Assembly: GCA_016875715.1 (NCBI GenBank)
Contig: VGOZ01000034.1
Location: forward strand, 1-32,217
DNA from: Chloroflexota bacterium
GTDB lineage: Bacteria; Chloroflexota; UBA6077; FW602-bin22
Reading direction: 5' to 3'
Length of the DNA: 32,217 bases
Made by a program: the position numbers and the translations under genes. Positions 3,132-16,650 of this stretch are shown one piece after another; positions within the stretch are counted from its first letter, which is position 1, and each line of letters opens with the position of its first letter. Below the pieces are notes generated by a model. That model saw only the letters and a list, made by a program, of their open reading frames with translations. It ran no database searches and was not told the DNA's origin.

Positions 3132-3566
3132 CTATCCGCCGAGGCCGGTGTACTCGTCCCGGAAGTCCCAGATCCGGGTGCGCTCGGCGTCGATCCGCAA
3201 GAGCATCCCCTCCCAGTTGAAGCCATCCACGTAGGCGTTGCCGACCTTCTCACCCAGGTAGCGGATCGCGATGCGCCGCACCGCTTCCCGCTCTCCCTCG
3301 ATGATGAGCGTGGCGCGCCCGCGCATTTCGATCCCGCAGTAGGGCGGCGTATCGTCGTACAGCACGAGACTGACCCGTGGATCGCTCCGGACGTGCTGCC
3401 CTTTGACGTCGTTGCGTCCGACGTGGACCCAGAACGTCCCCTCGCGCCACTCGTGCCAGACCGGCGAAAGGAGCACCATACCGTCTCTACGGTAGGTCGC
3501 AAGGGTCGAACACTTTGGGGCGTGCAGCAGGTCGGCGATATCGTCGGGCGTCAGGTCGCGTCGCAC
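3132..3566 (-). CDS. PPOX-class (pyridoxamine 5'-phosphate oxidase-fold) F420/FMN-binding protein
   Basis: A 144-aa split-beta-barrel protein of the PPOX superfamily. Typical features are STLATYRRDGMVLLSPVWHEW at the N-terminus, the VGRNDVKGQHVRSDPRVSLVLYDD block (cofactor phosphate binding in relatives) and the RGRATLIIEGE strand. Family members reduce small substrates with F420H2 or flavin, or bind heme or biliverdin. The neighbouring LLM oxidoreductase makes F420 the likelier cofactor. The GTG start follows GAGGAGG, which sits in the 9-nt gap after the LLM stop, so the two genes form one operon. The physiological substrate is unknown. Confidence 0.82.
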   Translation of the reverse strand: MRRDLTPDDIADLLHAPKCSTLATYRRDGMVLLSPVWHEWREGTFWVHVGRNDVKGQHVRSDPRVSLVLYDDTPPYCGIEMRGRATLIIEGEREAVRRIAIRYLGEKVGNAYVDGFNWEGMLLRIDAERTRIWDFRDEYTGLGG

Positions 3567-3575
3567 GGGGCCTCC

Positions 3576-4529
3576 TCAGGTCTCCAGCCGGGAAACGACG
3601 TGTTCGGCGAAGTACGCGGCGCTGTCCATTGCCGGGAAATCCGCGAAGCGCAGGATCACGTGACCGACGCCAAGCTCGGTGAAGGCGCGGATCTGGTCGG
3701 CCACATCGCCCGGCTCACCGATCAGGCAGGCCTCGTCGCCGCCTGAAGCCTGGTAGAAGCGGCTCGCCTGGGCGAGACGGCGGGCCTCGGCGCGGGTGGG
3801 CGCCACCGCGACGACGCCGGTCTCCCACGTCAGTGCGATGGTGGCCGGATCGCGTCGGATCGTCGCGCAATGCCCGGAGAGAACGTCGAGTTTGCGCCGG
3901 TACGTCGCGGGTGACCCGCCCGGCATGTTCCACCAGTCGGCGTGACGCGCGACCGCGCGGAGTGTCAGTTGCTCACCGGCACCGCCGATCATGATCGGGA
4001 TCGGTGGGTCCGGCATCGGGTTGCAGTACGCGTCGGTGACCGAGAAGTGGCGGCCGTGGAACGTCGCGGGCGAGGCCGTCCACATCGCGCGCATGATCTG
4101 CACTCCGTCCTCAAGTTGGCCGATGCGGATTGCCGGCGGGGGATACGGATAGCCGTAGGACGTGTACTCATCCTCCTTCCACCCCGCGCCGATACCCATG
4201 ATCAGCCGCCCGCCCGTGAGTAACTGCGTTGTCGCGGCCATCTTGGCCAGAAGCGCGGGATTTCGAAACGAGTTATTCATCACCACATGGCCAAACCGAT
4301 AGCGCGGAAACACCGCCGCAAAGTGGCAGATTGCCGACCAGGCTTCGAGCGTATCCGGGTGCGGCCCGCGCCACCCGTTCCCGGGCACGACGTGATCGGA
4401 GAGCCAGGCGGTCCGAAAGGCACCGTCGAGATGGCGCAGGTGGTTCTCGATCTGCCGGACGAGCACGGTGCCCGGCGCGTCGTCGGCCGGCCACATCGGC
4501 ACTCGCCAGCCAAGCTCGACCCGCACCAC
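3576..4529 (-). CDS. LLM-class (luciferase-like) F420-dependent oxidoreductase
   Basis: A TIM-barrel flavin/F420 oxidoreductase of the bacterial luciferase-like family, 317 aa. Recognisable parts are WLSDHVVPGNG near the N-terminus, GHVVMNNSFRNPALLAKMAATTQLLTGGRL (split here by nothing but quoted in part), GIGAGWKEDEY, and PIMIGGAGEQLTLRAVARHADWWN, typical of F420-dependent members. It first reads from GTG at 4529; a second GTG follows directly. There is no Shine-Dalgarno. Instead the palindromic promoter at 4535-4552 places a -10 hexamer 8 nt before the GTG, so a leaderless mRNA is likely. It is co-transcribed with the PPOX gene. Substrate unknown. Confidence 0.85.
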   Translation of the reverse strand: MVRVELGWRVPMWPADDAPGTVLVRQIENHLRHLDGAFRTAWLSDHVVPGNGWRGPHPDTLEAWSAICHFAAVFPRYRFGHVVMNNSFRNPALLAKMAATTQLLTGGRLIMGIGAGWKEDEYTSYGYPYPPPAIRIGQLEDGVQIMRAMWTASPATFHGRHFSVTDAYCNPMPDPPIPIMIGGAGEQLTLRAVARHADWWNMPGGSPATYRRKLDVLSGHCATIRRDPATIALTWETGVVAVAPTRAEARRLAQASRFYQASGGDEACLIGEPGDVADQIRAFTELGVGHVILRFADFPAMDSAAYFAEHVVSRLET

Positions 4530-4534
4530 GAGGC

Positions 4535-4552
4535 GCCATCCTATAGGATGGC
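4535..4552. promoter_or_regulatory. 18-bp perfect palindrome acting as symmetric divergent -10 element
   Basis: GCCATCCTATAGGATGGC is a perfect palindrome filling most of the 26 bp between two divergent GTG starts. It contains TAGGAT (a TANNNT -10) on each strand: plus at 4544-4549, 6 nt before GTG 4556, and minus at 4543-4538, 8 nt before GTG 4529. That spacing fits transcription starting at or next to the start codon. A regulator could also bind the symmetric site. Neither gene has a Shine-Dalgarno here. Confidence 0.6.
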
Positions 4553-4555
4553 CCG

Positions 4556-4954
4556 GTGAGCCGTCGGCTCGACGACTGGGATCTCGCCGATCGCGAGGGA
4601 GAGCGACCCCGGTCGCCCGTCACGCCCGACGTACTCGTTGCCGCGGAGCGGATCCTTCACGAAAGGCGAGCCGTCCTGTTGGGCGAGGTTGGCGCGCTCG
4701 CGCGGCAAGCGGCCGACGTCGGTGCGAGGCCGCAGTACGGCAAGAGGATCGGCGACCACACCCCCGACGCGGTTGAGTCGCGGAAGAATGCGATCGTCGA
4801 GGGGGCACTCCGGGCACGACTTGCCGAGGTCGACGCCGCGTTGGAGCGGATCGCGCGTGGTTCCTATGGCCGCTGCGCGCGGTGCGGGCGAGTCATCGAT
4901 GCCGAGCGCCTGCGGGCGCTGCCGTGGGCAACCGCGTGCGTGATTTGCCCGTAG
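4556..4954 (+). CDS. DksA/TraR-family C4 zinc-finger protein
   Basis: A 132-aa protein. Residues ~25-100 are charged and probably alpha-helical (coiled coil), followed by the family hallmark ALERIARGSYGRC and a C4 zinc finger with Cys107, Cys110, Cys128 and Cys131. DksA-like proteins enter the RNA polymerase secondary channel and alter initiation, often with ppGpp. The acidic coiled-coil tip of DksA (D-x-x-D-x-A) is not evident; GDHTPDAVES lies near there, so a DksA-like role is inference. The GTG start lies 6 nt after a TAGGAT -10 shared with the divergent oxidoreductase, and no Shine-Dalgarno is present. Convergent to rhaM. Confidence 0.82.
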   Translation: MSRRLDDWDLADREGERPRSPVTPDVLVAAERILHERRAVLLGEVGALARQAADVGARPQYGKRIGDHTPDAVESRKNAIVEGALRARLAEVDAALERIARGSYGRCARCGRVIDAERLRALPWATACVICP

Positions 4955-4976
4955 GGCCACGGCAGGACAGAACTGA

Positions 4977-5001
4977 GCGGGCGGCACTTGCGGGCGCCCG
5001 C
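4977..5001. terminator. GC-rich hairpin between convergent genes
   Basis: GCGGGCG (4977-4983) pairs with CGCCCGC (4995-5001) across an 11-nt loop, in the 53-bp gap between convergent stops. No T-run follows. Confidence 0.3.
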
Positions 5002-5007
5002 CGTCTC

Positions 5008-5325
5008 TCAGTCCAGGTGGAAGACCTCATCCAACTGCAGCATCGCCTGGTCCGGTCGACGCCCGGACTCGATCTCGAAGAACGGCGCCATGTCCCGCTG
5101 CCAGCGCAGGTTGACCTCTCGTTCGGCCATCAGTGCCCGGGCGCGATCGAAGTCGTCCGTCTCCAGGTAGCCAAAAAGCAGGCCATCGTCCCGCATGAAG
5201 AGCGAGTAGTTCTTCCAGCCAGTCTCACGCAGCGCCTGGAGCATCTCCGGCCAGACCTCGCGGTGCCGGCGCCTGTATTCGGGGATCATCGACTCCTTGA
5301 CCTTGAAGCAGAACCCGACCCTCAC
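5008..5325 (-). CDS. rhaM: L-rhamnose mutarotase-like protein
   Basis: A 105-aa dimeric alpha+beta barrel protein. RhaM interconverts the alpha and beta anomers of L-rhamnose. Family features are YRRRHREVWPEM with the catalytic-type His21, RWQRDM matching the RWWKYM of the E. coli enzyme, and the C-terminal EVFHLD matching EVFYLP. The GTG start follows GAGGAGG closely; the frame is open for 32 codons upstream but has no better signal there. It lies 14 nt after the DUF218 stop, so they share a transcript. No other rhamnose gene (isomerase, kinase, aldolase) is in the window, though a fuconolactonase-like gene lies 26 kb away, so the sugar may not be rhamnose. Confidence 0.82.
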   Translation of the reverse strand: MRVGFCFKVKESMIPEYRRRHREVWPEMLQALRETGWKNYSLFMRDDGLLFGYLETDDFDRARALMAEREVNLRWQRDMAPFFEIESGRRPDQAMLQLDEVFHLD

Positions 5326-5339
5326 GCCATCCTCCTCGT

Positions 5340-5963
5340 TCAGAGCCGCCCTGAGACCCGCCCCAGGAGCAGCAGCATCCAGTTGTAAAAGACCTGCGTC
5401 CGCCACTGCGTGTCCGTCCACCAGAGTCGGTCGCCAATTTCGGGGTCACGCACCAGGATCTGACCGACTGCGATCCCCTCGCCGCCGAGGATGCGATCGG
5501 CGGCCAGGAGGACGCGTCGACTGCCACCCGGCGCGCCGACGAACTGGACGCGGCGCCATCCGCGCGCCCGTGCCTCCACCGCCAGCGCACTCAGCGACTC
5601 GTACAGATCCTCACCGTGCGGCACCGCCACGATCCGCTCCGGCGGTACTCCGGCGGCGGCGAGGTGGTCCGCGCGGGGACTACCCACCGCCGGCGCCAGG
5701 ACATCCGGTGAAAACGGCCTGCCCAGCACAACGATCGGCACCCTCGCTTCACGGGCGACCTCCGCAATCCGCGCGTCCGACCATGTCGTCCTCAGGTTAG
5801 CGCCGACGATGAGGGCCTGGGGGTCGGCGATCGGCCTCTCGAGATCGAGCGACGCGAGGGTCGCCGCGAGGAAGGCGTGGCGCTGCGTGAGAGCGACGAC
5901 GAGCCCGGCCAGCAGCGTGAGAAGGAGCACCGCGGCCGCGACCTGGATCGGGCGACGGGGCAA
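5340..5963 (-). CDS. DUF218/YdcF-family (SanA/ElyC-like) membrane-anchored protein
   Basis: A 207-aa protein with an N-terminal hydrophobic helix (about residues 6-26) and a DUF218 domain: ALIVGANLR, the RADHLAAAGVPPERIVAVP core, and a repeated alpha/beta pattern. The family includes SanA and ElyC, linked to envelope integrity and peptidoglycan precursors; the biochemical activity is unsettled. The start is uncertain. TTG at 5963 is the first usual start codon and has no Shine-Dalgarno. The frame stays open upstream with protein-like sequence (GTRDPALYYR) to a CTG at 5996 that sits 6 nt after TACTCT, the arrangement of the leaderless starts seen elsewhere in this window. Confidence 0.65.
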   Translation of the reverse strand: MPRRPIQVAAAVLLLTLLAGLVVALTQRHAFLAATLASLDLERPIADPQALIVGANLRTTWSDARIAEVAREARVPIVVLGRPFSPDVLAPAVGSPRADHLAAAGVPPERIVAVPHGEDLYESLSALAVEARARGWRRVQFVGAPGGSRRVLLAADRILGGEGIAVGQILVRDPEIGDRLWWTDTQWRTQVFYNWMLLLLGRVSGRL

Positions 5964-15720: not shown

Positions 15721-16650
15721 ATGCTGCGTCTGATTCTTGCCGTGACGCTGCTTGTGGTTGCCTGCGTGCCTGCCAACGTGCCGTCCACGCGCGCCATTGA
15801 CATCGCCGGTCGGCGAATCCAGGTCGTGGCGACGACTGGAATGGTCGCCGATCTGGTCCGCAACGTCGGCGGAGTGCGGGTCGAGGTGGCCGCGTTGATG
15901 GGTCCAGGCGTCGATCCGCACCTCTACAAGCCATCGGCCGGCGACATCAACCGCCTCGAAAACGCCGACATCATCTTCTACAACGGCCTGGAGTTGGAGG
16001 GCCGGATGACCGACCTCTTCGTCAAGATGGCCCGGGTTGGTAAGCCCACTGTACCGGTGACCGATGGCGTGACGGAATCCAGGCTTCGTGAGCCACCCGA
16101 GTTTGAGGGCAAGTACGATCCGCACATATGGTTCGACGTCACGCTCTGGCAGGAGACCATCCCGGTCGTCGCACGGGAGCTCTCTCGCGTCGATCCGTCT
16201 TCCGAGAAGGTGTTCGAGGCGAACGCGGCGGCCTATACGAAGGAACTTGGAGACCTGCACCGCTACGTCCAGACGCTGGCGGGCGAGGTTGCTCAGCCTT
16301 CGCGCGTCCTGATCACTGCCCACGACGCATTCGGCTACTTCGGGCAGGCGTATGGCTTCGAGGTGAAGGGGCTCCAGGGCATCTCGACCGCGACCGAGGC
16401 CGGCGCGGCGGACGTCCAGGATCTCGCCGCATTCATCGCCGAACGGAAGGTCAAGGCGATCTTCGTCGAGTCTTCGGTCTCGCGTGCCGCGATCGAGGCT
16501 GTCCAGGCTGCCGTCCGCGCCAGAGGCTTCGACGTGCAGGTTGGCGGTGAACTGTTCTCCGACGCGATGGGTGCCGAGGGCACCCCGGAGGGAACGTACG
16601 TCGGGATGTTCAAGCACAACGCCGAGACGATCGCCAGGGCGTTGAAGTGA
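15721..16650 (+). CDS. Zn/Mn ABC transporter substrate-binding lipoprotein (TroA/ZnuA type)
   Basis: A 309-aa metal-binding lipoprotein; the signal ends in LVVAC with Cys15 as lipid anchor (a good lipobox). Cluster A-I fold with likely ligands His67 (DPHLYKP), His135 (DPHIWFD), His201 (TAHDAFGYF) and Asp281 (LFSDAMG). The third ligand is His, as in TroA and ZnuA, rather than the Glu of PsaA/MntC, and the His-rich loop of ZnuA is missing. Zinc or manganese is therefore equally possible. The ATG is preceded by AGGGGG; a GTG one codon earlier is too close to it. First gene of a four-gene operon; its stop overlaps the ATPase start by 4 nt. Confidence 0.93.
   Translation: MLRLILAVTLLVVACVPANVPSTRAIDIAGRRIQVVATTGMVADLVRNVGGVRVEVAALMGPGVDPHLYKPSAGDINRLENADIIFYNGLELEGRMTDLFVKMARVGKPTVPVTDGVTESRLREPPEFEGKYDPHIWFDVTLWQETIPVVARELSRVDPSSEKVFEANAAAYTKELGDLHRYVQTLAGEVAQPSRVLITAHDAFGYFGQAYGFEVKGLQGISTATEAGAADVQDLAAFIAERKVKAIFVESSVSRAAIEAVQAAVRARGFDVQVGGELFSDAMGAEGTPEGTYVGMFKHNAETIARALK

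Follow-up and report, generated by a model that had tools for sequence, protein, structure and literature searches.

A putative two-way promoter built on a 12-bp palindrome between divergent, apparently leaderless genes in Chloroflexota

Results

The divergent genes and the palindrome between them

The window, a stretch of 32,217 nucleotides from a Chloroflexota bacterium (contig VGOZ01000034.1, assembly GCA_016875715.1), contains two divergent genes whose GTG start codons lie close together. The gene on the - strand (3576-4529) encodes an LLM-class (luciferase-like) flavin/F420 oxidoreductase, matching Pfam PF00296 with an E value of 9.8e-42. Its best NCBIfam model is TIGR03560, with a score under the cut-off of that model, and going by the nearest models the enzyme likely uses F420, the cut-offs of the F420 subfamilies all being missed. 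The next gene in the operon (3132-3566, - strand) is PNPOx-like (PF01243), starts 9 bp beyond the oxidoreductase gene and has a clear GAGGAGG Shine-Dalgarno (SD) sequence upstream. The order of these two genes is the same in G001, which represents a second genus of the same Chloroflexota family and is the sole other genome of the family among those searched.

On the + strand, the gene at 4556-4954 specifies a 132-amino-acid C4 zinc-finger protein of DksA/TraR type. The general family PF01258 is the only model passed above its cut-off, the best DksA scores being 45 bits for NF033459 (cut-off 105) and 36 bits for TIGR02420 (cut-off 115.5). The equivalog and subfamily models of TraR as well as DksA remain under their cut-offs, and we therefore call the protein DksA-like only. 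Beside this gene, the - strand region 5008-5421 encodes an L-rhamnose mutarotase (RhaM) domain (PF05336) that scores under the NCBIfam enzyme cut-off. Farther along the window, a ZnuA-type zinc-uptake binding protein (15721-16650, + strand) heads a run of + strand genes.

The GTG start codons of the oxidoreductase (4527-4529, - strand) and of the DksA-like gene (4556-4558, + strand) are separated by a gap of 26 nt. The original prediction placed an 18-bp palindrome in this gap, and we find GCCATCCTATAGGATGGC to be an exact palindrome at 4535-4552. It had also described TAGGAT on both strands at 8 and 6 nt from the starts, which agrees with the hexamers at 4543-4538 (- strand) and 4544-4549 (+ strand). 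Together these hexamers make up the 12-bp core ATCCTATAGGAT (4538-4549, both strands), in which one putative -10 element per strand abuts the other within a single short AT-rich site. The proposed -10 precedes the GTG by 6 nt in the DksA-like gene and by 8 nt in the oxidoreductase gene, both distances matching the peak of the motif TANNNT that is found 6-9 nt before start codons genome-wide. Within 300 nt upstream of the two genes no other TANNNT is present, either here or in G001. A sigma70 -35/-10 pair was not found at the palindrome locus, and no terminator was found within 4200-5000.

The length of the palindrome is by itself unremarkable, because 26 perfect palindromes of at least 18 bp were counted in 1.62 Mb of the window genome, where about 17 are expected from composition. 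A search for second copies of GCCATCCTATAGGATGGC with up to 3 mismatches yielded none in the window or in the whole assembly (3.38 Mb, 171 contigs), and this single-copy state rules out a general repeat or mobile element. What goes beyond chance at the site is the position of the TANNNT motifs and the retention of core and spacing in the second genus.

A leaderless signature across both genomes

For the genome-wide scan, genes were called by codon usage and start codons were picked without any motif, covering roughly one-half of the window genome and one-fifth of G001. TANNNT stands 6-9 nt before 146 of 1,143 starts in the window genome (12.8%) and before 46 of 467 in G001 (9.9%). The values fall to 2.3% and 1.5%, respectively, at 12-15 nt before the starts, and to 0.43% and 0.49% at 6-9 nt before internal in-frame ATG/GTG controls. 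The motif scan suggested by the original prediction yields a sharp peak at this distance in both genera, unmatched at any other position. No -35 signal appears in the upstream profile of the starts with TANNNT. The peak corresponds to the signature of leaderless genes reported from Actinobacteria and Deinococcus-Thermus (PMC3160421, PMC12340547). The commonest leaderless -10 hexamers of the window genome are TAGAAT and TAGACT, and TAGGAT accounts for 3 of 119, making it an acceptable -10 here, not a typical one.

Conservation in a second genus

The orthologous divergent pair is present in G001, with protein identities of 66% and 51%. All 12 bases of ATCCTATAGGAT are identical there (L031, 2983-2994), and the spacings to the two start codons, 6 and 8 nt, are the same as in the window. 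The aligned 26-nt gaps of the two genera read GAGGCGCCATCCTATAGGATGGCCCG and GAGGCGTGATCCTATAGGATCGACGC. The arms directly outside the core differ, and the additional symmetry that its GCC/GGC arms give the window copy is not kept. The alignment therefore rules out 18 bp as the functional unit and points to 12 bp. Six bases adjoining the - strand start are also conserved between the two genera.

ATCCTATAGGAT occurs once in the window genome and once in G001, both times at this gene pair, and is missing from all 27 others among the 29 class genomes searched (about 130 Mb). Across 400 genomes of the phylum it has 14 sites, compared with 5 for the reversed control. None of the other 12 sites is placed between two divergent starts with leaderless spacing, and we rejected ATCCTATAGGAT as a recurrent element of the phylum. 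The pairing of the oxidoreductase gene with the DksA-like gene is likewise conserved in these two genera only.

The perfect dyad symmetry raises the question of whether the palindrome is mainly an operator, bound by a dimeric repressor or activator of both genes, with promoter activity being secondary or coincident. In M. tuberculosis, for instance, the promoters of lysG-lysE overlap around a palindrome to which a regulator binds (PMC5648196). The conserved bases of ATCCTATAGGAT also include ones that a TANNNT -10 can do without: its N positions are more conserved than a bare -10 requires, so that an operator function may be added to it. The -10 hexamers of leaderless genes could be compared between the two genera in about four true orthologs, too few to calibrate a conservation rate. 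An operator would, however, be expected to recur, and neither genome has a one-mismatch site of ATCCTATAGGAT elsewhere, while in most sites with two mismatches the TATA centre is gone. With this lack of near-copies there is no sign of a regulon around ATCCTATAGGAT in the two genomes, and we rejected one. Neither neighbouring gene product is a typical DNA-binding regulator, and no HTH regulator is encoded beside the site. The spacing to both start codons, moreover, matches the -10 peak exactly. We therefore consider a primarily operator role unlikely.

Start codons and the Shine-Dalgarno question

The oxidoreductase GTG at 4529 coincides, when aligned, with the GTG at which four orthologs start (G001, G020, G002, and G026). 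Three of these, from other families (L003 in G020, L007 in G026, and L012 in G002), carry a strong SD sequence before the homologous codon, which supports the start assignment. The oxidoreductase start thus appears to be SD-led at the same codon in other families and not in this family, and its mode of initiation seems to have switched. The + strand start is homologous to an ATG at the same spacing in G001, the single ortholog aligned.

With the -10 hexamers as proposed, transcription of the DksA-like gene is predicted to begin at 4556, the first base of its GTG, giving a leaderless mRNA. The - strand start lies 8 nt from its -10, so a leader of 0-2 nt is possible, and the predicted +1 falls between 4531 and 4529.

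The original prediction held that neither gene has an SD sequence, which overstates the case. Each TAGGAT contains AGGA, 7 nt (+ strand) and 9 nt (- strand) before the start and within the SD spacing range of the genome. Each half of the palindrome could accordingly be a weak SD sequence, with the promoters located further upstream inside the opposite gene and with overlapping 5' ends. The pairing is weak, -6.1 kcal/mol in the window and -3.7 kcal/mol in G001, against about -10 kcal/mol for the SD-led orthologs. The upstream promoters needed for such an arrangement also find no counterpart in a further TANNNT, given its absence from the 300 nt upstream in both genomes, and the outer A/T and central TATA of ATCCTATAGGAT are conserved although AGGA needs neither. 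Together with a second conserved symmetric pair lacking AGGA, presented below, these points make initiation from weak SD sequences quite improbable.

Other divergent pairs with a shared -10

Divergent pairs less than 200 bp apart number 94 in the gene set of the window genome, and in 6 of them each of the two starts is preceded by TANNNT at 6-9 nt. With four control motifs, the same count gave a single match altogether. In four of the six pairs the hexamers overlap by 2-4 bp, and the predicted start sites of these four are 21-23 bp apart. The G001 sample has no two-sided pair among 24 divergent pairs. At its threshold, the codon-usage caller did not pick up the DksA-like gene, which is short; the window pair therefore stands outside the 94-pair count and adds a case in which the hexamers abut. 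Apart from the window pair, divergent pairs with overlapping TANNNT on both strands are found at L102 14010-14033, L101 4984-5009, and L101 12659-12684 (0-based gaps); their gaps measure 23-25 nt and both motifs are at leaderless spacing.

One of the pairs with TANNNT on both sides has another palindromic shared -10, CGATTCTAGAATCG, which lies between divergent MobA-like and CCA-transferase-like genes (G000:C1:94418-94447, L205/L209), with the starts 6-8 nt away. It is kept at the orthologous pair of G001 (G001:C24:264426-264453, L208/L210), on a contig outside the 24-pair sample, where the protein identities are 56% and 60%. CGATTCTAGAATCG is a different palindrome from ATCCTATAGGAT, has no AGGA and carries the modal -10 hexamer TAGAAT. 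The conservation of both palindromes points to two independent symmetric promoters, each retained in the two genera. That the second pair has another palindrome, itself a modal -10, also argues against the operator explanation.

One could further suppose that the promoter is used on one strand only, the mirror image being the by-product of a fortuitous second TAGGAT. Sequences with a TATA centre are to some extent self-complementary, and the count given above shows that palindromes of at least 18 bp are no rarity here. Yet each spacing lies inside the 6-9 nt peak and has been retained in the second genus, and no further TANNNT is present in the 300 nt upstream of either gene, so that we regard use of a single strand as very improbable.

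Discussion

The position, spacing, and conservation of ATCCTATAGGAT favour, with a probability of roughly three in four, a bidirectional promoter of abutting -10 elements that makes two leaderless or nearly leaderless mRNAs. The symmetric promoter for two leaderless genes put forward by the original prediction is supported in this form, and the junction alignment it called for retains the genes, the 12-bp core, and both spacings in two genera. The proposal needs amendment in three respects: the unit is 12 and not 18 bp, the outer arms being variable; weak SD sequences offer an alternative; and the - strand mRNA may have a leader of 0-2 nt.

The promoter would be of the sigma70 type, consisting of two inverted, abutting TAGGAT -10 elements without a -35, to which RNA polymerase could bind in either orientation. 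A polymerase bound in the + orientation would be expected to initiate on the GTG that opens the DksA-like gene; one bound in the - orientation would initiate on the GTG of the LLM oxidoreductase operon or 1-2 nt ahead of it. The two transcripts would then be leaderless or nearly so and presumably translated as such, and from the geometry a distance of 25-27 bp is predicted between their start sites. Since the polymerase footprints on ATCCTATAGGAT would overlap, the two orientations should exclude each other. Opposing polymerases cannot co-bind sites of this kind (PMC12825309), so the oxidoreductase operon and the DksA-like gene probably compete for polymerase. The two may also be coupled in their regulation, as the original prediction envisaged.

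The site resembles the bidirectional promoters described by Warman, Grainger, and colleagues (PMC12825309, PMC10268837), which have a short shared -10 that is read both ways, do not need a -35, and have divergent starts a few tens of base pairs apart, with mutually exclusive polymerases. According to the account in PMC10268837, start sites of bidirectional promoters are by definition 7-25 bp apart, with 18 bp being the commonest distance and 10 and 23 bp also common. In contrast to the promoters as presented there, the hexamers of ATCCTATAGGAT abut instead of overlapping, and the predicted 25-27 bp lie at the edge of the published range. Furthermore, all 12 bp of ATCCTATAGGAT are perfectly symmetric, and transcription is predicted to begin on or next to two start codons.

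The TANNNT promoters of leaderless genes in Actinobacteria and Deinococcus-Thermus (PMC3160421, PMC12340547) share with the site the right distance to the start codon, no -35, and no strong SD sequence; those reports deal with one-directional promoters, whereas ATCCTATAGGAT would work two ways. Of the 12 Chloroflexi genomes covered by a 2011 survey, 4 had leaderless genes, with a share of about 4.7% of genes (PMC3160421); the share here is about 10-13% of starts by a cruder count. The Rv1129c/prpD pair of M. tuberculosis has juxtaposed divergent promoters, and both mRNAs are reported to be leaderless (PMC3898074). The window pair is similar in its divergent genes and two predicted leaderless mRNAs, a likeness by description and not base by base; unlike here, a single palindromic -10 for both genes does not feature in the part of that report we draw on. 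Among papers on leaderless genes and on bidirectional or overlapping divergent promoters in the open-access literature, we found none in which a palindromic -10 is shared by two leaderless starts. Each ingredient, the bidirectional promoter and the leaderless divergent pair, is already known on its own, and their combination here is unusual.

A broader reading, which we offer tentatively and hold to be somewhat doubtful, is that, within this Chloroflexota lineage, -10s of perfect palindromic form are a selected class of minimal two-way promoters for leaderless gene pairs, with about 26 bp of regulatory DNA in total. The symmetry might equalise the outputs of the two genes or link them, both genes competing for a single polymerase, and no fewer than two promoters of this class would have survived intact since the genera split.

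If the bidirectional promoter is as proposed, one symmetric element of 12 bp would serve as promoter, start site, and translation start for two genes. ATCCTATAGGAT would thereby provide a clean test object for the choice of orientation by the polymerase and for the question of whether competition ties two genes together. The strong leaderless signature in this uncultivated Chloroflexota class also bears on the annotation of start codons that have no Shine-Dalgarno sequence.
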